The notes beneath the pieces are model-generated. The model was not told where the DNA came from. It saw only the letters and a list, made by a program, of their open reading frames with translations, and searched no databases. DNA of 64,000 bases from an uncultured Anaerolineae bacterium (GTDB lineage Bacteria > Chloroflexota > Anaerolineae > Anaerolineales > Villigracilaceae), in NCBI GenBank assembly GCA_903822545.1, contig CAIJPN010000100.1, positions 1-64,000 of the forward strand. The letters are read 5' to 3'. A program made the translations under genes and the position numbers. Each line of letters starts with the position of its first letter. Within the stretch, counting starts at the first letter, position 1. This document shows positions 2,404 to 56,779 of the stretch, in pieces.

Positions 2404-2439
2404 AAAACAGCGCGAGATGAAATCATCTCGCGCTGTTTT
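2404..2439 (-). terminator. rho-independent terminator overlapping the recF stop
   Basis: A 16-bp stem, AAAACAGCGCGAGATG pairing with CATCTCGCGCTGTTTT, has loop AAAT and A/T flanks on both sides, so it could act in both directions. It overlaps the last codons of recF. It would end the def-recF transcript and could also stop transcription from the convergent aminotransferase gene. Confidence 0.8.
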
Positions 2440-3634
2440 CTTCCACCGTACCGGCCTGGACGCGCCAGAGCGTGGATTGTTCCACGAAGACGGGATCGTA
2501 CAGGTTCAGGTCGGTGGTGGTCAGCAGGGATTGTTCGGTTTCGGTCAGGGTGGACATGAGATCGGCGCGGCGCTCGTGGTCGAGTTCGGCCATCACTTCA
2601 TCCAGCAAAATCACCGGCCACTCGCCAGTTTTTTCACGAATCCAGCCGACTTCGGCCATTTTGAGTGCCAGCAGGGTGGTGCGCACCTGTCCGCGTGAGC
2701 CGTAATCGCCCAGGTTGATGCCGTTGGCAAGGAAACGCAGGTCGTCGCGGTGCGGGCCGATGGTGGTGACGCCGCGCAGAATTTCTTCGCTGCGCAGGCG
2801 CTTGAGCTGTTCGATAAAGCCCTTGCGGATGGTTTCCACATCCAGCCCGGAGCGGTCGATCACAGCGTCGATTTTGAGCGCAAACTGGCCGTTGGGCCTG
2901 GCGAGAGGGTCAAAAGACGGGTCGTAGGCAATGCGCAGGACTTCCTTGCCGCGCGTCAGGCGGTGATGGGCGCGGGCTGCCAGTCGTTCCATCTCTTGCA
3001 CGGCCTGGATGCGCGCAAACACAATCTGCGCGCCGCTGGATGCCAGGATGCCATCCCAGTAATCAAGCTGCGACTGGTCGCCGCCGCGTTCGGCGAGCTG
3101 CTTCAGCAGGGCGTTGCGCTGCTCGATGGTTTTGTGATAGTCAGCCAGTGCGCGGGCATAGCCAGGAATAACCTGCGCTACCGCCAGGTTGAGATAGCGC
3201 CGCCGCTCTTCGGGCGCGCCTTCCACGATGGATGCCATCTGCGGAATAAACAGGACAGCATTAAACTGGCCAACGGCTTCGCTATGGCTGCGTTTGACGC
3301 CATCCACCAGGATTTCTTTGCGGGTGCGCTGCCCAAGCGGCCCAACCGGCTCGATGATGATGCGCACTTCGATGCGGTGTGGCTTCCCGGCGCGGATATA
3401 GTCTACTACAATCCGCGCCACCGCCAGGCTCTCACGCGCCGCCACAAAATTGACCAGCTGCCGCTCGGTGTGGGTCTGGAAGGATGAAAACGTGGCGAGG
3501 TAGTAAATGGCCTCCAGCACACTGGTCTTGCCCTGGGCGTTGCTGCCCACCAGCAAAACAGCCCGCCTGGGAACTTCCAAGTCCAGGCGGGCAAAATTGC
3601 GAAAGTTGGTGAGCGAGAGATGCTTTAAATACAT
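2423..3634 (-). CDS. recF: DNA replication and repair protein RecF
   Basis: A 403-residue SMC-like ATPase that helps load RecA at single-strand gaps. The N terminus LKHLSLTNFRNF is typical of RecF. The Walker A motif GSNAQGKT is at residues 30-37, the signature region FSSFQTH follows, and Walker B is VILLDEVMAELD near the C terminus. The start at 3634 is the ATG just before LKHLSLTNF; an upstream ATG in the same frame lies inside def and is not needed. The gene starts 4 bases after the def stop, so the two are probably co-transcribed. In many bacteria recF sits beside dnaA and dnaN; here it does not. Confidence 0.95.
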   Translation of the reverse strand: MYLKHLSLTNFRNFARLDLEVPRRAVLLVGSNAQGKTSVLEAIYYLATFSSFQTHTERQLVNFVAARESLAVARIVVDYIRAGKPHRIEVRIIIEPVGPLGQRTRKEILVDGVKRSHSEAVGQFNAVLFIPQMASIVEGAPEERRRYLNLAVAQVIPGYARALADYHKTIEQRNALLKQLAERGGDQSQLDYWDGILASSGAQIVFARIQAVQEMERLAARAHHRLTRGKEVLRIAYDPSFDPLARPNGQFALKIDAVIDRSGLDVETIRKGFIEQLKRLRSEEILRGVTTIGPHRDDLRFLANGINLGDYGSRGQVRTTLLALKMAEVGWIREKTGEWPVILLDEVMAELDHERRADLMSTLTETEQSLLTTTDLNLYDPVFVEQSTLWRVQAGTVEENSAR

Positions 3635-3638
3635 GAAA

Positions 3639-4145
3639 TCAGACGTTATCTTCCACAGGTTCGGTTGGTTTCCAGATTTTGGTTGCCAGGTCGGTGAACA
3701 GGACACCGTTTAAGTGGTCGATCTCGTGCTGGAAGATGCGCGCCGTCCAGTCTTTGAGCCTGAGCGTCAGCGGCTGCCCGTGGCGATTCTGCCCTTTGAC
3801 AGTAATCGCCAACTTGCGCTCCACATCACCCTGCAAGCCAGGGATGGAGAGACAGCCTTCAGGGGCGATTTCGGTATCTGCCGAAGTGCGGGTTATCTGC
3901 GGGTTGATGACCACATAAAGGCGTGGTTCAGCCTCCTCGTCTTCTTCATCTTCGGCGTACTCGACCACAATTACACGCTCTAAAATGCCTACCTGCGGGG
4001 CAGCCAGCCCAACGCCGGGAGCCTGGCGCATGGTTTCAACCATGTCATCCACAAGCTGCTGCAATTTATCATCAAATTTTGTGACCGTTTTGGCCTTTTT
4101 CTTCAAAACCGGGTCAGGGACGGTGACAATTGTTCTTAATGCCAT
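3639..4145 (-). CDS. def: peptide deformylase
   Basis: A 168-residue metallohydrolase that removes the formyl group from the N-terminal methionine of new proteins. All three family motifs are present: GVGLAAPQVG (44-53), EGCLS with the metal-binding cysteine (96-100) and HEIDH with two metal histidines and the catalytic glutamate (140-144). An acidic insertion, EDEEDEE, lies near residue 66. The length is normal. It is the upstream partner of recF. Confidence 0.97.
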   Translation of the reverse strand: MALRTIVTVPDPVLKKKAKTVTKFDDKLQQLVDDMVETMRQAPGVGLAAPQVGILERVIVVEYAEDEEDEEAEPRLYVVINPQITRTSADTEIAPEGCLSIPGLQGDVERKLAITVKGQNRHGQPLTLRLKDWTARIFQHEIDHLNGVLFTDLATKIWKPTEPVEDNV

Positions 4146-49733: not shown

Positions 49734-50414
49734 TTACCTGACAATGATTTGAAAGGCAAAATGGCAAAAAATTGTATCCTTGCGCCGCAGGGCCCAGCGA
49801 GTGATATAAGCGCCCGCCTTCGATGGGGCCTTCATCCACACTGAAAAATCAGCATAATCACCAGATGTCACTGCAATTTCACTCTCTTTGTGTGATGCAT
49901 TCAGGAACATCTTCTCTCCTTCGACGTGTATTATATCCAGGCTGCCCACCGGCCAATCTTTGGCGCCCGCATTTTTGATGGTCCAAACCACCAGGAATTC
50001 ATACCCTGGCTTGAAGTTTGTCCAATCGTCTGGTTTTTGGGCCAGCACCTGACAGGAATAATTATTGTTCCCCTGCACCTTGCCCACTTCAGCACCACCG
50101 AGTGTCATATCTGTAGGGCTGGCCGTGAGGGTAAGGCTTGGTGTAATGGTAAAGGTAGGCGGGATGGGTGTGATGGATGAAACCGGGGTTAATGTAGGGA
50201 AATCTGTAGCCCGCAAGCGCAGCCTGGTGGGGGTAGGCTGGGCAGTAGGCAATGGCGTGCGTGATGGGATGGCAGCAATCGTGGCGGCCACGATCGTCTG
50301 TACAACAGCATCAGGGTTTTGCGGGCCAGCCCCAGGAGATGGAGCACAGGCTGGCAGTAATAGCGCCCCTATCATCAACATGTGCAGCAAAAGGCGTTTT
50401 TGAATCGTACTCAT
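49734..50414 (-). CDS. NBR1-Ig-like domain lipoprotein 6
   Basis: A 226-residue lipoprotein: signal peptide with lipobox LLPAC, then AVVQTIVAATIAAIPSRTPLP, a Thr/Pro linker, and an Ig domain with YSCQVL, FLVVWTIKNAGAKDWP, GAYITRWAL and IFCHFAF. The W-x-N-x-G-x-x-W core is the family mark. It lies 16 bases upstream of the next paralog. Confidence 0.87.
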   Translation of the reverse strand: MSTIQKRLLLHMLMIGALLLPACAPSPGAGPQNPDAVVQTIVAATIAAIPSRTPLPTAQPTPTRLRLRATDFPTLTPVSSITPIPPTFTITPSLTLTASPTDMTLGGAEVGKVQGNNNYSCQVLAQKPDDWTNFKPGYEFLVVWTIKNAGAKDWPVGSLDIIHVEGEKMFLNASHKESEIAVTSGDYADFSVWMKAPSKAGAYITRWALRRKDTIFCHFAFQIIVR

Positions 50415-50455
50415 GATTTCCTCAGCGTCCCGGTTAAATTTAGATGCAGCACCGG

Positions 50456-51106
50456 CTACTTATAGACTCTAACCATCAGGGAAAACTGGCAAAAAATCCC
50501 TTTTTTATTCTGCAAACCCCAAATTGTGGTGTAAATTCCTTCTTGTTTTGGGGTAGCCATATCGACAATCAGCACAACAACATCTCCAGGCTCAACCACC
50601 TCTGTCATGGCGTAAGAATTGCCATAGGTGTGCAACTTGTCGCCGCCGACATATACCAGTTGAACCGTATCTGCCCAGTCTTTTGTGCCGGCATTTTTCA
50701 CTTTCCAGTGCATGTCGAAACCATCGCGTGGTTTGAATTGAGTCCAGTCAATAGGTTCCTGTGAAATGATCTGGCAGGCATACTCCCCACTGCCTTGAAC
50801 CAGGTTGATGATGCTGCCCGATGATGTGGGCTGCGCCCCGGATGTCGATGTGGATACTGCTGGCTGGGTGGAAATCGCCGGAATGGTTGGAAGGGGCACG
50901 GTTGGGGTGATAGTCGGTTCGGGGGTGCTGGTAGGTGGCAGGGTGGCAGTAGGCTGCGCTGCCAGGGTTTCCATAACGCCCGTAGCGATGCTATCCGCCG
51001 GGGCAATCCCAGGGGTTGGGGTAGCCTGTTCAACGATAGCTGCACAGGCCGGGGTCAGGAGCAAAACAAGAATGCTGGTAAAAACCAGGGAATGTTTTTT
51101 TCTCAT
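50456..51106 (-). CDS. NBR1-Ig-like domain lipoprotein 5
   Basis: A 216-residue lipoprotein with lipobox LTPAC, a Thr/Pro/Ser linker, YACQII, DMHWKVKNAGTKDWAD, VYVGGDKLHTYG, GIYTTIWGL and IFCQFSL. The start at 51106 is chosen because it gives a proper signal peptide (MRKKHSLVFTSILVLLL); the longer frame overlaps the upstream gene. Confidence 0.86.
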   Translation of the reverse strand: MRKKHSLVFTSILVLLLTPACAAIVEQATPTPGIAPADSIATGVMETLAAQPTATLPPTSTPEPTITPTVPLPTIPAISTQPAVSTSTSGAQPTSSGSIINLVQGSGEYACQIISQEPIDWTQFKPRDGFDMHWKVKNAGTKDWADTVQLVYVGGDKLHTYGNSYAMTEVVEPGDVVVLIVDMATPKQEGIYTTIWGLQNKKGIFCQFSLMVRVYK

Positions 51107-51116
51107 AAGTGATGTG

Positions 51117-51785
51117 CTATTTTTTCTGCACTTGGATACTAACGCTAAATGTGCAAAATACTTTTTTAGATGTTCCAATTCCCCAGACTGTTGTATATGT
51201 GCCAGTCTTTTTTGGCGCAGTCATATCGAGGATAAATTCCAGTTTTTCGCCTTCTTTGTAGGTTTTGGGGAGGTCGACTACATCGTTAAAATCATGAAAT
51301 TTATCGCCTTTAACGTAAAAGAGATCAAAGGCGCTGGAGTCCCAGGCTTTTTTACCAACATTAAGCAATATCCATTTGCCGTCAAATTTATCACCCGGCT
51401 TGAAGATGGTGCCATCTAGCGGTTTTTTTGATAGGAGTTGGCAGGAGTATCCATCCAATGTTTGGATGGCGGTTTCTTTGGTAACCGTCGCAGTGGGGGT
51501 GAAGGCGGAGGTGGCTGTCAAGATGATGATGGGAGTCATGGTAGGCAGCGGTGTAACAGATGGCTGAGGTGTCTCGGTAACGGTGGCCGTTGGCAGGACG
51601 GTTATTTCCGTTGGGGCCGGGAGTGGAGTATTGGTTGGGGCGAGGGTCGAGGTCGGCAGGGATGCGATTGTCGCTGCGATGCTGGTTGCAATGATCGCTT
51701 CTGGCGGAAGTTCGCTGGTGGGCGCAACTGGCGCACAAGCAGAGAGCAGGGTGATGAGGAGAAACAGCGATATTATTTTTTTCAT
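51117..51785 (-). CDS. NBR1-Ig-like domain lipoprotein 4
   Basis: A 222-residue lipoprotein with lipobox LLSAC, a Thr/Pro linker (LAPTNTPLPAPT), YSCQLL, FDGKWILLNVGKKAWD, FYVKGDKFHDF, GTYTTVWGI and VFCTFSV. It starts 4 bases after the stop of the upstream paralog, so translation of the pair is tightly linked. Confidence 0.87.
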   Translation of the reverse strand: MKKIISLFLLITLLSACAPVAPTSELPPEAIIATSIAATIASLPTSTLAPTNTPLPAPTEITVLPTATVTETPQPSVTPLPTMTPIIILTATSAFTPTATVTKETAIQTLDGYSCQLLSKKPLDGTIFKPGDKFDGKWILLNVGKKAWDSSAFDLFYVKGDKFHDFNDVVDLPKTYKEGEKLEFILDMTAPKKTGTYTTVWGIGTSKKVFCTFSVSIQVQKK

Positions 51786-51789
51786 GGCT

Positions 51790-52482
51790 TTATTTTTTCT
51801 GTACGATTATAGAGATGGTGATCTGGCAAAAAACACTTTTTCCGTAGGCTAGGCCCCAAACGGCAGTGTAATTGCCAGGTTCTTTGGGAGCCATCATATC
51901 CAGTGTGAGTTCGATGCTGCCACCAGATACGACATCTTTCGAAAGATCGAATCTGCTGCCATACTGGTGCAGGGCGGCGCCGCTGACAAATATAAAATTG
52001 ACGTTATCGGCGGGCCAATCATTGCTGCCCAAGTTGCGAACCTGCCATTTGGCATCAAAGGTATCCAGCGGATAGAATTTGTTCCAGTCAGTGGGTCGTT
52101 GGGATAGGATGGAACAGCCGTATTGGGAATTTCCTTGCATAGGGCCAGGGATGGGAGTAAGGGTGGCAATGATTTCTGAGCGTTGGGTTGGAGGTACCTG
52201 GGATGGCACAACCAGGGCAGTGGGTAAGATGGGTGTTGGTGGCTGGTTGCCTGGGGTCAGGTCAAAATTTGGCGGTGTGGTGGGGGTACGGGTGGGTAAG
52301 GCGGTGCGGGTAGGGATAAGGGTGAAGGTGGGGACAGCAAAAACAGTGGCCGCCACTGACATGGCAATCCGATCGATCTTTTGGGTGGGCGTTGGCTGGG
52401 GCAAGACAACCGCCACTGGCGCGCAAGCCGTGAGAAGAAAGATGAAAAAGAGTGCATTAAGGATGAGACGGTATGGCTTCAT
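51790..52482 (-). CDS. NBR1-Ig-like domain lipoprotein 3
   Basis: A 230-residue lipoprotein with lipobox LLTAC, a long Thr/Pro linker (PTRTALPTRTPTTPP), YGCSIL, FDAKWQVRNLGSNDWP, FVSGAALHQYGSRFDL, GNYTAVWGL and VFCQITI. Confidence 0.87.
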   Translation of the reverse strand: MKPYRLILNALFFIFLLTACAPVAVVLPQPTPTQKIDRIAMSVAATVFAVPTFTLIPTRTALPTRTPTTPPNFDLTPGNQPPTPILPTALVVPSQVPPTQRSEIIATLTPIPGPMQGNSQYGCSILSQRPTDWNKFYPLDTFDAKWQVRNLGSNDWPADNVNFIFVSGAALHQYGSRFDLSKDVVSGGSIELTLDMMAPKEPGNYTAVWGLAYGKSVFCQITISIIVQKK

Positions 52483-52581
52483 AATTAGTTCCTTGCAATC
52501 GGTGCCGGTGTCAGGATGAAGTATAACAAACTCTAATGACTCTCTGAGAATTAGCAGGGTGTGCTGTTAGAACCGCTCTTT

Positions 52582-53238
52582 TTACTGGCCTGCCACCTTT
52601 ATAGTAATGCTAAACTTGCAAAACAGGGTGGAGCCTTTTTTCAGGCCCCAAACGCTGGTGTATTCACCGGGAGATTGAGGCGCCTGGAATTTCATCGTTA
52701 ACTGGAGGTTTTGTCCATCAAGAACGGATGTTTTCATATCCATGGTATCGCCATCCGTATGTAATCGCGAACCTTCAAGAAAAACAATATCAATGGCTGT
52801 TGAATCCCAATCTTTGGGGCCCATATTCTGGATGACCCACACAGAGAAGAAGGTTTTTCCAGTCAAATAGGTGGATTTGTCTGGTGGGTTCATTTCCAGC
52901 AATTTACAATTATAGCCAGATGATCCTTGTATCCGTCTTGCGTCAGTGCTGGTTGGGATCGGTGTCAGGGTATCCATGGGCGTAACAGAGGGAGCAGCCG
53001 TCATGGTTGCTAAAAAGTTTTGGGTGGGTAGTTTTGTGGGTCGGGGCGGGGTGCTGCTTGGGGGAAGCGGTGTATTGGTGTGAGTGGCCGTTGCTGAGGG
53101 CATGGCTGTAAATGTAGCGGCGATGCTGGATGCAACAACCTCCTGGGGCAAAAGCCCAGGCGTGGAAACGGATGGGGCACAAGCGGTCATCCCTATCAGT
53201 AATCCTAAAAATACCCCGAAAAATGATTGTACTTTCAT
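52582..53238 (-). CDS. NBR1-Ig-like domain lipoprotein 2
   Basis: A 218-residue lipoprotein with lipobox-like MTAC after a hydrophobic signal (FFGVFLGLLIG), a Thr/Pro linker (TNTPLPPSSTPPRPT), YNCKLL, FFSVWVIQNMGPKDWD, VFLEGSRLHTDG, GEYTSVWGL and LFCKFSI. The 106-bp gap before it holds a strong hairpin (53260-53303). Confidence 0.86.
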   Translation of the reverse strand: MKVQSFFGVFLGLLIGMTACAPSVSTPGLLPQEVVASSIAATFTAMPSATATHTNTPLPPSSTPPRPTKLPTQNFLATMTAAPSVTPMDTLTPIPTSTDARRIQGSSGYNCKLLEMNPPDKSTYLTGKTFFSVWVIQNMGPKDWDSTAIDIVFLEGSRLHTDGDTMDMKTSVLDGQNLQLTMKFQAPQSPGEYTSVWGLKKGSTLFCKFSITIKVAGQ

Positions 53239-53259
53239 ACCATCTCTTATGGAATAATC

Positions 53260-53303
53260 AACGCGGACGAGCCCCTGTGCCCAGCATGGGTCTCGTCCGC
53301 GTT
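53260..53303. repeat. 12-bp inverted repeat between the first and second NBR1-type genes
   Basis: AACGCGGACGAG and CTCGTCCGCGTT pair perfectly over a 20-base loop. On the minus strand it lies downstream of the leading gene and is not followed by a T run, so it may be a processing or attenuation hairpin that sets the first gene apart from the other six. Confidence 0.7.
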
Positions 53304-53344
53304 TGTAACGTGCCAGGGCGGTGCAGGGGCTCGTGCAGCGGTGA

Positions 53345-53758
53345 CTACTTCACCCGGACAATCAGGTAGAAACGGCAGAACACCTTGTTGCCGTTGGTCA
53401 GGCCCCAGTAGGTGGTGTAAGTGCCAGGATTTTTTGGCGCAACCATATCGAGGATAAGCGTTGCCTTGCCTAGTGGTTTGACAATCTTCACATCAAAACG
53501 ATTGATGCCATACTTTTGCATCTTCGCGCCACCCAGGAAAACCAGGTCAACGCCGTTCCAGTTGGCGGTGCCTGTGTTGCGGACAATCCACTTCATATCA
53601 AAATCCTGACGGGACTGCATCACGACCCAGTCGCGGGGGAATTGTCCATCCAGGTGACAGGAATATGTGCCAGCCGCGGCGGCTGTATCAGCCGGGACAA
53701 AGGTTGTTACCATCAGGATCAAGGCCAGGGTGAGGAAAAAGATTTGCTTCAGTTTCAT
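53345..53758 (-). CDS. NBR1-Ig-like domain secreted protein 1
   Basis: A 137-residue secreted protein, the first of seven paralogs. It has a signal peptide (IFFLTLALILMVTTFVPADTAAAAG) without lipobox cysteine and no Thr/Pro linker, then a single Ig domain with YSCHLD, DMKWIVRNTGTANWN, LVFLGGAKMQKYG, GTYTTYWGL and VFCRFYL. AAGGAG lies 8 bases before the start. Unlike the others it should be released or bound non-covalently. Confidence 0.88.
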   Translation of the reverse strand: MKLKQIFFLTLALILMVTTFVPADTAAAAGTYSCHLDGQFPRDWVVMQSRQDFDMKWIVRNTGTANWNGVDLVFLGGAKMQKYGINRFDVKIVKPLGKATLILDMVAPKNPGTYTTYWGLTNGNKVFCRFYLIVRVK

Positions 53759-53847
53759 ACAATTTACTCCTTTTTGCAAAATATTTCGGCGCAGGTGCCA
53801 GCGACTATCTAACTAATAGTATACCCACCTGCGCCAAAATTTCAAAA

Positions 53848-55182
53848 TTAATCGCCGGTTTCGCTCGAACCGATCCCCAGCGGTTTCCACTTGTTGGCAT
53901 CTTTCAGGCGATGTTGGATGCCATCCCGTTCATGCAGGTGGTCAAAATTCTCGGGTTTGATAAACATCTGATCGCCATCGAGCAGCCCGGTCAAACCAGT
54001 TTGACCCACCTCGGGGCGTTTATTCTGGCAGGCTTTACAGGTTTTGGGATCATGCGGCTTGTACTCGGTAGGCTCTTCATAAGTGGCAATATAGCCTTCA
54101 TAGTTGCGCAGGATAATCTTGTGATCTGACATGCTGATCTGGTAATTGGGCATCACCGGAATCTTTCCGCCGCCGCCAGGCGCATCCACTATGAACTGTG
54201 GCACTGCATACCCGGAAGTATGTCCGCGCAGACCCTCGATAATCTCAATACCTTTGGCAACCGGCGTGCGGAAGTGTCCCGCGCCTTCCACCAGGTCACA
54301 CTGATAGAGATAATACGGGCGCACGCGAATTCGCACCAGCTTTTGCACCAGATCACGCTGGATGTGAACACAATCATTGACACCCGCCATCAATACCGAT
54401 TGGTTGCCCAGCTGGATGCCTGCCCGGCTCAACAGGTCGGTAGCCTGTGCCAGTTCCGCCGAAATCTCATTCGGGTGATTCACGTGGATATTCATCCAGA
54501 GCGGGTGATACTTCTGGAGTGTGTCGCACAATTCGGGGGTGATGCGCTGCGGCATAAAGACCGGCACACGCGAGCCAATACGCACAATTTCCACATGTGG
54601 GATTTCGCGCAGGCGGCTGAGCAGCTCATCCAGGATTTTGGGAGCCAACACCAGCGGGTCGCCACCCGAAAGCAGCACATCGCGGATCTGTGGTGTGCGA
54701 CGGATATACTCAAGCTGCATTTCAAACTCATCGCGCTTGAACGTCTGCCCGGGATCACCAACGATACGCGAGCGGGTGCAATAGCGGCAGTACGAGGCGC
54801 ACTGTGTCGTTACCAGCATCAGCACACGGTCAGGGTAACGGTGAACCAACCCCGGCACAGGAGAGTGTCGATCTTCCGAGAGAGAATCTTCCATCATGGC
54901 TGTAAAAGCCTGCATCTCCTCTGCGCGCGGGATAATCTGTTTGCGAATGGGGTCATCCGGATCATTCGGGTCGATCAGCGAAATAAAATACGGGGTCACA
55001 TCCACGCGAAACAGCCCGCTGGTATTGAGGGCTTTGCGTTCACTCTCAGTCAGGGTTAAAACTTTCTCAATATCATCTGCCGAATTAAGGCGATTGCTGA
55101 GCTGCCAGCGCCAATCGTTCCATTTTTCATCGGGAACATCCTGGAAAACAGGGGCGCGCTTAGAGACAAAAGGGGTGGGCAT
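53848..55182 (-). CDS. kamA: lysine 2,3-aminomutase (radical SAM)
   Basis: A 444-residue radical SAM, PLP-dependent enzyme. The 4Fe-4S motif CASYCRYC (CxxxCxxC) is near residue 133, LLSGGDPLVLAP follows, and MPNYQISMSDHKIILRNYEG is the C-terminal family block with the PLP lysine region before it. A C-terminal KTCKACQNKRPE segment supplies the zinc-type cysteines. It converts L-lysine to L-beta-lysine, used in lysine fermentation or as the compatible solute N-acetyl-beta-lysine. No ablB acetyltransferase or other kam gene is next to it. GGAGG lies 5 bases before the start. Confidence 0.93.
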   Translation of the reverse strand: MPTPFVSKRAPVFQDVPDEKWNDWRWQLSNRLNSADDIEKVLTLTESERKALNTSGLFRVDVTPYFISLIDPNDPDDPIRKQIIPRAEEMQAFTAMMEDSLSEDRHSPVPGLVHRYPDRVLMLVTTQCASYCRYCTRSRIVGDPGQTFKRDEFEMQLEYIRRTPQIRDVLLSGGDPLVLAPKILDELLSRLREIPHVEIVRIGSRVPVFMPQRITPELCDTLQKYHPLWMNIHVNHPNEISAELAQATDLLSRAGIQLGNQSVLMAGVNDCVHIQRDLVQKLVRIRVRPYYLYQCDLVEGAGHFRTPVAKGIEIIEGLRGHTSGYAVPQFIVDAPGGGGKIPVMPNYQISMSDHKIILRNYEGYIATYEEPTEYKPHDPKTCKACQNKRPEVGQTGLTGLLDGDQMFIKPENFDHLHERDGIQHRLKDANKWKPLGIGSSETGD

Positions 55183-55384
55183 GGGTTCCTCCAAAAGGTG
55201 ATTAAAGTTTTATGGGTAAAAGAAACGCTTAAAGAACCTTCTGGCCCGGCGGGTCATGGTCAGGGCGAAAAAATCCCCCAAAATAGGGCAAAAAACCAGA
55301 CAGGAAAATCATAAAGGTATTGTAAGATGAAAAAAGAAGCGGGTCAATGAGGTTTTGCTCCGGAGATGTTTCCCTGTTTAACCA

Positions 55385-55800
55385 AGACACTCTTTATAAA
55401 TAGATATCTTAATTAGTAATCGCAGTAGAGCCTGTGGATATGTGGATAAATCGGCCCTGCCACCATATATGGAGAAAAAAGAACCCATCCCGCCCTGTAT
55501 CTGCCGGTTTTCACAGCGAGCCGGATTCTCCCCTTGTGGATAACCCGCCAAACCGCCCCGCGGCTTTTTCCACCATCCTATAGCCGGTTTCTACCTATTG
55601 GGTCTCCCTAAAAAACACCCCCCATATCTGGGGGGCGGCATTATGATGATTTGTCGAACAATTGAGCGGTTTCTCCACAATCAATGTCATTTATCCACAG
55701 TTTTGAGGCACTTATCCACAGAAAGGTGTGGAAAATACCCATTCACCCGGCGCTATTATTCGGATAGATACCCCCACATATAGCCGATATTATCCATACT
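55385..55800. other. candidate chromosomal replication origin (oriC)
   Basis: The gene-free stretch 55183-55789 holds a cluster of DnaA boxes. Perfect TTATCCACA or its complement lies at 55441, 55535, 55691 and 55712. One-mismatch boxes lie at 55433 (TGTGGATAT), 55671 (TTCTCCACA), 55727 (TGTGGAAAA) and 55790 (TTATCCATA). An AT-rich stretch (TTTATAAATAGATATCTTAA, 55393-55412) beside them could unwind. Another palindrome, CCCCCATATCTGGGGG, is near 55619. No comparable cluster was noticed elsewhere in the window. dnaA is not adjacent. Confidence 0.82.
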
Positions 55801-56779
55801 GTGTAGACATTTTATCCAGCACTTCTTCCACCGCATCCAGGAAGTGATCCATGCTTTGCAGGCGCAGCTCAAAAGATGTCCCGGCCAGCCCGGCGTATTT
55901 GCAAGCCGAATCCCACAGCGTGGTTTGTTCCGCGCTCCAGTTCCCAGCCTGGGCGGCCAGCGCCCAACTGTGCAGCACCAGCCACAGCGCCTGGGATGTG
56001 TCCCTGGCATCCAGCGCCGCCAGGATGGCCGATTTGTAATACGCCAGCCGCACCGGGTGAACGCGCAAATCCACCGGGGCGTGTGTAGCCGCGCTGAAAG
56101 CGGTTTCCCATGGCCCCAGCCAGGCGCGGATATCATCGGCACTCACATCCAGCCCGCCGATCATGGCGGTTAGCGTATTTGCCAGTTCGGGCTTTTTGGC
56201 CTTTTTAGCGCGTTCGGCAAACCCGGTGAACAGTCTGCGTTCAGGCAGCGGCGCGCCATTCATCACCGCCAGGCTGTTGGCGGCATCTTGCACGGCCAGC
56301 AAGTATTTGGCAGGATCCGCTTCTCCGCCAAACTGGAAGGCTGTCCAGCGATCACGCGCGCGTCCGGCAAAATAACGTGCCCGCGCCAGCACATTTGATG
56401 GATCGTCAAACTGCGCCCGCAGGCTCGATTGGGTGTACTCGAAGAAACGCCCTTTTTCATACAGCAGCATCGGGTCCCACATGGCCCAGCCGCGCCAGGG
56501 GTCGGCGCGCAGTTCGCGCGGTTTGGCATAGGCTTTTTCGCTTTCAAACATCAAATCCAGGTGGATTTCTGCCGAGATTTTGATGATTTCCCGCTCCAGG
56601 TCTGGCTCGCCCTTGGTGATGACCAGCAAATCGACATCTGTTGTCCCACCAATCAGCGGGTCGCCATCTGTGCGCATTGAACCGACCAAAAAGACGGCCA
56701 CCACATTCGGGTCGGGCTTAAAGCGCTTTTCGGTGGTGTCTTTTGCCAGTTTCAGGAGCATTTCTCGGGTAATGCGCAT
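55790..56779 (-). CDS. nucleotidyltransferase-fold protein
   Basis: A 329-residue protein. The N-terminal domain has the Pol-beta-type signature VFLVGSMRTDGD...TDVDLLVIT (Gly-Ser plus Asp-x-Asp), then a third acidic position in HLDLMFE. The rest is helical, like the C-terminal part of kanamycin- or aminoglycoside-type nucleotidyltransferases. It may modify a small molecule or belong to an uncharacterised MNT-like group. The gene overlaps the last DnaA-box candidate at its stop and follows the kinase gene by 3 bases. Confidence 0.8.
   Translation of the reverse strand: MRITREMLLKLAKDTTEKRFKPDPNVVAVFLVGSMRTDGDPLIGGTTDVDLLVITKGEPDLEREIIKISAEIHLDLMFESEKAYAKPRELRADPWRGWAMWDPMLLYEKGRFFEYTQSSLRAQFDDPSNVLARARYFAGRARDRWTAFQFGGEADPAKYLLAVQDAANSLAVMNGAPLPERRLFTGFAERAKKAKKPELANTLTAMIGGLDVSADDIRAWLGPWETAFSAATHAPVDLRVHPVRLAYYKSAILAALDARDTSQALWLVLHSWALAAQAGNWSAEQTTLWDSACKYAGLAGTSFELRLQSMDHFLDAVEEVLDKMSTQYG

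Follow-up and report, generated by a model that had tools for sequence, protein, structure and literature searches.

Does a dense cluster of DnaA boxes that has no dnaA gene beside it mark the start of chromosome replication in an uncultured member of the Anaerolineales, and, if it does, what has become of the usual linkage between dnaA and oriC? We followed up these questions, raised by an earlier note on the DNA, for a cluster in the window, by which we mean the whole 64,000-nucleotide stretch that was analysed. The window belongs to a 90.5-kb contig (C100) of a 5.53-Mb genome in 237 contigs. Relatives were drawn from a survey set of 121 genomes, in which the window's own family is labelled f1.

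A DnaA-box cluster with a probable unwinding module

The four perfect and four one-mismatch TTATCCACA boxes that had been claimed within about 370 bp were all found again, at 55433-55798 (Table 1). With up to one mismatch allowed, the whole window holds 25 box matches compared to 9.4 +/- 3.0 in shuffled sequences, and 0 of 100 shuffles scored as high. The densest 370 bp in 300 first-order Markov simulations contained at most three boxes (6/300) and at most one perfect box, compared to the eight and four observed. Perfect boxes number 86 in the window's genome, compared to 17 matches to the reversed pattern. Among the places listed in this genome, the window site alone has four perfect boxes within 300 bp, and it is the genome's sole instance of the close pair TTATCCACA-N1-30-TTATCCACA. 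The cluster is beyond chance and the densest in the genome; a different, second array is present on contig C18. The AT-rich stretch said to lie beside the boxes is there as well. The cluster had also been placed in a gene-free stretch, which holds for the roughly 595 bp that separate the start of the kamA ORF at 55194 from the stop of a nucleotidyltransferase-like (NTase) gene at 55790, but a small part of the cluster is genic, since its last box and the NTase stop codon overlap.

Table 1. Features of the putative origin and of its neighbouring genes, in window coordinates
Feature	Coordinates	Strand	Basis or remark
kamA, lysine 2,3-aminomutase, trio-side neighbour	53848..55194	-	TIGR03820 over cut-off
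AT-rich stretch, probable first-opening site (DUE)	55375..55424	+	74% AT; place beside trios conserved in relatives
DnaA-trios, 5'-TAG TAA TCG CAG TAG-3'	55414..55428	+	sequence; third (TCG) without middle A
Spacer AGCC, 4 bp, trios to first DnaA box	55429..55432	+	GGGC/GGCC-like in relatives
Two tandem DnaA boxes, putative DnaA anchor next to trios	55433..55449	-	two box-like sites in 19 aligned loci, all picked by a regular expression requiring both boxes
One-mismatch DnaA box, tandem partner	55433-55441	-	pattern match
Perfect DnaA box, tandem partner	55441-55449	-	pattern match
Palindrome CCATATATGG, NrdR-box-like site 1	55463..55472		sequence
Perfect DnaA box, lone	55535-55543	-	pattern match
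Palindrome CCCATATCTGGG, NrdR-box-like main site	55621..55632		counterpart of site near +208 in relatives
Element CGAACAATTGAGC	55655..55667	+	by eye; several relatives have it just ahead of core boxes
One-mismatch DnaA box, first of three-box core	55671-55679	+	counterpart in many relatives
Perfect DnaA boxes, core pair, 21 bp apart	55691-55699 and 55712-55720	+	pattern match
One-mismatch DnaA box	55727-55735	-	pattern match
Degenerate palindrome CCACATATAG (one mismatch), NrdR-box-like site 3	55774..55783		counterpart of site near +348 in relatives
One-mismatch DnaA box over NTase stop codon	55790-55798	+	pattern match
NTase gene, core-side neighbour	55790..56779	-	by eye; no Pfam/NCBIfam match at E 0.001
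Deoxynucleoside kinase (dNK) gene, PF01712	56783..57616	-	true start may be near residue 67

Read from left to right, the site consists of the AT-rich stretch, trios, spacer, tandem boxes, a palindrome, the lone box, a second palindrome, the element CGAACAATTGAGC, the core boxes, a further box, the degenerate palindrome and the last box. The element CGAACAATTGAGC resembles no site that we can name. The left end was compared to the basal unwinding system (BUS), described for Bacillus subtilis and reported to occur broadly, which is defined by a DnaA box, a spacer of at most 16 bp and at least three trios with a middle A (PMC8287927). The box and the 4-bp spacer of the window fit this definition. 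Four of its five trios have the middle A, with TCG interrupting them, so that three never stand in a row; several relatives do have three or more such trios in a row.

Conservation in relatives, which the earlier note had proposed to check for the box spacing, was borne out for the arrangement. The module was aligned in 19 loci, of which 16, the window included, belong to f1 and three to other families; the trio consensus is TTAGTAnTCGTAGTAGGGGCTGTGG, and AGTAG, TGTnGA and GTGG are invariant. A sequence model of the module (R1) finds the window at 55389-55450 with an E-value of 7.4e-14, the window being among the model's own sequences, and matches 103 of the 121 genomes at E up to 0.01, including 19 that had supplied the model. 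Each matching genome has one match except G023, G033, G095 and G116 (two each) and G075 (three). The 18 of 121 genomes without an R1 match include six of f1, where 67 of 73 genomes have one. A regular-expression scan located the module in 51 of 104 sources (three genomes counted twice), and a close perfect DnaA-box pair occurs in 97 of the 121 genomes, in some of them away from the module. The whole arrangement of module plus three-box core is alike in many genera. The proposal that the cluster looks like oriC is supported by the box statistics, the unwinding module and this conserved arrangement, and we conclude that the site is very probably the oriC of an Anaerolineales chromosome. In one further record, the 3.59-Mb bin917 chromosome (L176, CP070639.1), neither the DnaA C-terminal domain nor the module was found, which reflects either incomplete sequence or a real loss.

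The neighbouring genes are, as the note had stated, kamA and the NTase gene, not dnaA or dnaN, which lie on contigs C60 and C114. The distance of about 52 kb to recF was likewise recovered, as a RecF-like ORF at 2423-3706 that was recognised by eye only. On the trio side, spoVS (PF04232; e.g. L059:8224-8703) stands within 600 bp in 32 of 51 module loci, and kamA occupies this usual spoVS place in the window. The core-box side is often occupied in f1 by an NTase-dNK gene pair; NTase is found there in 8 of the 15 module loci that were recruited by boxes alone. We also kept 80 relatives of the window dNK (57-88% identity; the best by E-value has 73% over residues 2-277 of 277). Because these loci were recruited by dNK, the presence of dNK in them proves nothing. 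The module, which is independent of this recruitment, is present in 32 of the 80, at 1.6-2.5 kb in 31 and at 6.2 kb in one. A dNK gene beside an origin fits a nucleotide-pool theme and proves nothing. Elsewhere in the window, six consecutive related ORFs for secreted proteins or lipoproteins (about 145-240 aa; 49734-53779, minus strand) share a similar C-terminal half and, judged by eye, apparently form a tandem gene family.

A palindrome common to oriC, dnaA and nrdR

Besides DnaA boxes, the origins carry palindromes CCCANATNTGGG whose positions are fixed relative to the trios, at about +41 or +72, +178, +208 and +348. Their 10-bp core CCANATNTGG is exact in 42 of 47 oriCs. Background segments drawn from three f1 genomes had it in 40 of 4000 cases, and after shuffling it occurred in 0.96 of the 47 sequences on average and in 5 at most. 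In the window's genome, the 12-bp form has 19 copies compared to two for the reversed control, one of them in the window oriC and another 309 bp ahead of the adopted dnaA start. Of 31 dnaA loci, 14, belonging to 12 distinct genomes, have the exact core at -304 to -334, and two more have it at -359 and -399, these distances being counted from starts inferred by alignment to the genome's own 458-aa ORF, which may err by some codons. The exact core is missing upstream of dnaA in the remaining loci of the 31, including both Leptolinea genomes and most of the families in which dnaA is linked to the origin (see below). Nine f1 genomes were read at this place; it is present in seven (G000, G011, G057, G040, G062, G008 and G030) and missing in two (G003 and G043).

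The third target surfaced unasked: several copies outside oriC and dnaA shared a 150-aa gene, which is nrdR (TIGR00244, 146.5 bits; cut-off 124.65). It is flanked by the start of a B12-dependent ribonucleotide reductase (RNR) gene of the nrdJ type on one side and by ftsZ on the other. The gene was found in 29 of the 30 genomes asked (not in G010), and G087 falls outside the readable set. In f1, the core precedes the nrdR start by 40-50 bp in each of the 28 readable loci, exactly in 19 and with one mismatch in the rest; at the locus in the window's own genome (L388, contig C17), the palindrome is at -42. The palindrome stands, that is, in front of the nrdR/RNR operon.

Exact CCCATATATGGG is present in 69 of the 121 genomes, and the f1 nrdR copies mostly differ from it. 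Among 75 listed exact copies, 56 are at the three targets: 21 at oriC, 27 at dnaA, counting two from genomes whose dnaA is divided between contigs, and eight at nrdR, of which six lie at -18 to -52 and the others at -107 and -323. Since the three targets amount to about 1 kb per genome, we estimate the chance expectation at well under one of the 75. The three copies of genome G084 are those of oriC, dnaA and nrdR. We dropped the idea that the palindrome is specific to oriC, given the many exact copies at dnaA and nrdR. We also rejected a transcription terminator: by eye, no T-run follows the copy at 55621, and the palindrome also precedes nrdR. With regard to the 19 listed copies elsewhere, an all-against-all comparison of 28 other loci showed as shared genes only nrdR, nrdJ, ftsZ, pieces of dnaA and, in two genomes of one genus, a moaA-like end. 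Genome G062 holds twelve exact CCCATATATGGG copies, and every other genome has at most three. In the window's genome, two palindromes 21 bp apart occur in the same form on two contigs (C16:80-112 and C226:3537-3569); the C16 pair precedes a small gene and, judged by eye, a trypsin-like ORF.

The place before nrdR makes NrdR itself the candidate binder. Binding by NrdR involves two 16-bp palindromes with 15-16 bp between them and requires dATP plus ATP or ADP (PMC12176259), and NrdR-box spacers of 14-17 bp and of 24-27 bp are bound (PMC12051234). A spacer of 14-17 bp corresponds to about 30-33 bp between box centres. The nrdR gene is often clustered with RNR genes or replication genes such as dnaA (PMC4898720). 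When 42 oriCs were aligned on the main palindrome, a degenerate second box appeared at -30 (mean 5.4 of 8 positions matched, compared to a median offset of 1.8). In the 28 nrdR promoters, the degenerate second box at -31 scores 5.21/8, which is weak alone because the offsets +24 (5.36) and +13 (4.96), where other conserved promoter letters lie, score about equally. None of these 28 loci has a pair of boxes with at most one mismatch each 28-33 bp apart, and the dnaA palindrome stands far from the start and seems single. For Streptomyces coelicolor NrdR, D15 and R17 are named for box recognition, and the C-N8-G pair of the box matters (PMC9110341). This pair is kept in the Anaerolineales palindrome. 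In the 32 NrdRs read (36 loci asked), D15 is always kept, and residue 17 is S, T or N. The substitution at residue 17 would be in keeping with a modified box; it also argues for a different mode of recognition.

The locus may be oriC as described while the palindrome is the operator of another regulator of nrdR and dnaA, or a structural element, rather than a site of NrdR. We regard this as a possible but rather unlikely reading. It gains from the fact that the attribution to NrdR is drawn from sequence, with a degenerate second box and an apparently single site at dnaA, from the 19 of 75 listed exact copies that lie elsewhere, and from the absence in all 32 proteins of R17, the recognition residue of S. 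coelicolor (PMC9110341). It is opposed by the presence of the palindrome before nrdR in every readable f1 locus, as NrdR often controls its own gene (PMC9110341), and by the 30-31 bp repeat, which agrees with NrdR geometry (PMC12176259, PMC12051234), together with the retained C-N8-G. The altered residue 17 would suit an altered box, and the missing T-run speaks against a structural role. We infer that the palindrome is a putative NrdR operator coupling initiation to the dNTP pool. On balance, we lean toward NrdR being also an origin-binding protein in the Anaerolineales, with candidate operators in oriC and upstream of dnaA, through which a full dNTP pool would lower initiation, DnaA and dNTP synthesis.

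Separation of the probable origin from dnaA

The dnaA gene of the window's genome lies at about 33.2-34.6 kb of the 36.7-kb contig C60, with a GAF histidine kinase gene upstream, as in the four f1 relatives read there (G057, G040, G062 and G008). No box cluster was found near it, the surrounding 3.2 kb containing one one-mismatch box. The nearer contig end lies about 35 kb from oriC, and for dnaA the corresponding distance on C60 is about 2 kb, which puts at least about 37 kb between the two. With neither dnaA nor dnaN adjacent, this is not a canonical dnaA-oriC-dnaN locus. The dnaA gene is also absent from all 51 module loci, 38 of which extend at least 5 kb on both sides.

Module and DnaA C-terminal domain share a contig in 20 genomes. 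Twelve of these, from families f2, f4, f10, f11 and f15 and none from f1, have the module within 2.1 kb of dnaA, three of the module matches being weak (E 7e-4 to 3.5e-3). In the other eight (five of f1 and three of f9), 115 kb to 3.35 Mb separate the two in record coordinates. For the five of f1 (G057, G008, G062, G040 and G043), the span is 0.6-3.35 Mb in record coordinates and the distance 0.6-1.9 Mb, with G057 at about 0.62 and G008 at about 1.84 Mb if circular. The remaining 62 f1 genomes with a module have dnaA on another contig, where closeness at contig ends is possible. In the cultured Levilinea saccharolytica and Leptolinea tardivitalis, too, module and dnaA are on different contigs. 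Where linked loci were read in f2, f3, f4, f10 and f15, the core pair is faced by the dnaA 3' end (in G111 the module alone was seen); in f11, the module lies past the dnaA 3' end and the perfect pair upstream of dnaA. Box pairs also stand beside dnaA in G073, G074 and G086 and just upstream of it in the f1 genome G022, and none of these four has an R1 match. The pair in G022 (contig C42) represents either a linked origin or autoregulation.

The uncoupling of oriC from dnaA that the note had proposed is upheld by the separate contigs in this genome, by the lack of a box cluster at dnaA and by the distances of at least 0.6 Mb in five f1 relatives. Its further suggestion, that linkage was lost in this lineage, stands to the extent that none of the 67 f1 genomes with a module is linked on one contig; the separation is not particular to this genome. 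Linkage is present in several families of the order and absent in the judgeable f1 genomes and in f9. As five other families keep the module within 2.1 kb of dnaA, linkage has changed within the order; a loss in f1 looks more parsimonious, with several losses or gains also conceivable. The palindrome is also found in origins of the linked families f10 and f11 (L221, L222, L223), and so it did not first appear when linkage was lost; the exact core was not found in f2 origins (L217, L226, L227) or, at the places examined, in the two Leptolinea genomes. The palindrome sites either predate the loss of linkage or are unconnected with it, and after it they could have maintained joint control of the origin and its initiator.

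The GC-skew check suggested in the note gave a mixed result. Neither the window nor its contig shows an informative pattern, and skew is weak in the lineage. Three relatives in single contigs were sampled with 20 stretches of 20 kb each. In G062, the symmetric-origin score at the module is 0.713 compared to a best of 0.740 (permutation P 0.0045). When 400 kb of this genome were read throughout, the cumulative minimum was a ragged trough at 440-690 kb, lowest at 680-690 kb, with the module inside it at 556 kb. The sampling of G057 (P 0.033) puts the best place at 3.39-3.58 Mb and the raw skew minimum after the sample at 3.77 Mb, with the module at 3.91 Mb and in the best 15%. In G008, which was not significant (P 0.13), the module is in the best fifth and dnaA in the worst 5%. 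Scores at dnaA are -0.153 in G062, -0.365 in G008 and -0.008, which is neutral, in G057. Skew was dropped as a decider: it is uninformative on the window's own contig, helps in one relative and roughly in a second, and does not help in the third. The evidence that the note had named as contrary to it, a skew minimum elsewhere with a stronger box cluster near dnaA, was looked for and not found.

Arrays of DnaA boxes outside oriC are known from E. coli as datA and DARS. It is very improbable that the window cluster is a titration or reactivation site of this kind with the origin elsewhere, for example at a dense array at the 3' end of rmlD on contig C18 (5854-6233; L005). This array has three perfect and four one-mismatch boxes on one strand, plus flanking ones, and counterparts in the f1 relatives G062, G040, G043 and G030 (L047, L049, L051, L066). 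In G062 it falls within the coarse skew interval and was therefore weighed as a competing origin, until R1 put the module in mid-trough; the array, at 793 kb, is on the rising part. It also lies largely inside a coding gene, and the single R1 match of each of the five genomes is elsewhere, 74 kb (G043), 155 kb (G040) and 237 kb (G062) from the array. A datA/DARS-like reading of the window cluster itself ranks low because the cluster has the unwinding module. The rmlD array is perhaps a titration or reactivation site.

It is hardly credible that oriC adjoins dnaA with overly divergent boxes and that the window cluster merely regulates kamA or NTase: some bacteria do use divergent DnaA boxes and G022 has its box pair upstream of dnaA, but the surroundings of dnaA here hold a lone one-mismatch box, the genome's single R1 match is the window site, dnaA is disfavoured as origin by the skew of G062 and G008 (neutral in G057), and the same module does adjoin dnaA in other families of the order.

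Predicted working of the origin and comparison with known systems

Taken as a whole, we consider it likely that the locus is an oriC with a module opened by DnaA, that dnaA lies elsewhere in f1, and that a palindrome shared with dnaA and nrdR places the origin under putative NrdR control. The module, its conservation, the separation from dnaA and the palindrome common to oriC, dnaA and nrdR are observed. We infer the opening by DnaA at the module from the likeness to known unwinding elements; NrdR as the binder and the sign of its effect are likewise predictions. DnaA would bind the boxes, extend from the tandem pair over the trios and open the AT-rich stretch to their left, and the three-box core (55671-55720) would help to build the DnaA assembly. 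Upon a surplus of dATP, NrdR would bind oriC and the control region of dnaA, and could in this way set initiation, the supply of DnaA and dNTP synthesis together.

How bacteria match the start of replication to the supply of dNTPs is an open question. Across many genera, oriC, dnaA and nrdR have one sequence sign in common, which suggests a coupling of replication initiation to the supply of DNA building blocks in these bacteria; as the sign unites the three places, the idea that a nucleotide sensor acts at the origin is testable with one protein and three DNA fragments. For an order that is widespread and largely uncultured, the locus also provides an oriC map that can be tested, and the families with linked and unlinked dnaA form a natural comparison. 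Origins apart from dnaA are known, and the window adds a further member with informative relatives. NrdR sites in RNR promoters and at topA are known as well; their combination with oriC and dnaA would be new. In the portions of the literature covered by our search, no report of NrdR at oriC or of an Anaerolineae oriC was found; the NrdR-regulon study of 2005 (Rodionov and Gelfand, cited in PMC4409342) may mention a site at dnaA. The work on E. coli covered by the search presents NrdR as a regulator of RNR genes and DnaA as one of the further regulators of nrdAB.

Compared to the BUS of the B. subtilis type, the Anaerolineales origin has tandem DnaA boxes, a short spacer, DnaA-trios and an AT-rich region in the same order. 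It differs in that the module is apart from dnaA in f1, that one of the five trios of the window is without a middle A and that conserved palindromes not belonging to DnaA are also present. The oriC of E. coli stands apart from dnaA, and the window origin resembles it and those of cyanobacteria in this respect. Cyanobacterial oriC usually adjoins dnaN (PMC4674748). By contrast, the window origin is flanked by NTase and dNK, often with spoVS in relatives, and neither dnaN nor dnaA is adjacent; moreover, some families of the same order do have dnaA beside the same module. In sequence, the rmlD array is like datA and DARS in being a group of DnaA boxes outside oriC.

The palindromes share with the NrdR boxes of RNR promoters an AT-centred form, the C-N8-G pair, the place before nrdR (with nrdJ adjoining in the loci read) and a tendency to a 30-31 bp repeat. 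They are unlike those boxes in their sequence, CCCANATNTGGG, and in the extra conserved copies in oriC and upstream of dnaA. A known parallel is the control of topA, a DNA-topology gene, in Pseudomonas aeruginosa, which has a single NrdR box and is activated by NrdR in exponential phase (PMC4409342). Unlike the Anaerolineales case, the target there is topA, the effect is activation and no origin is involved.
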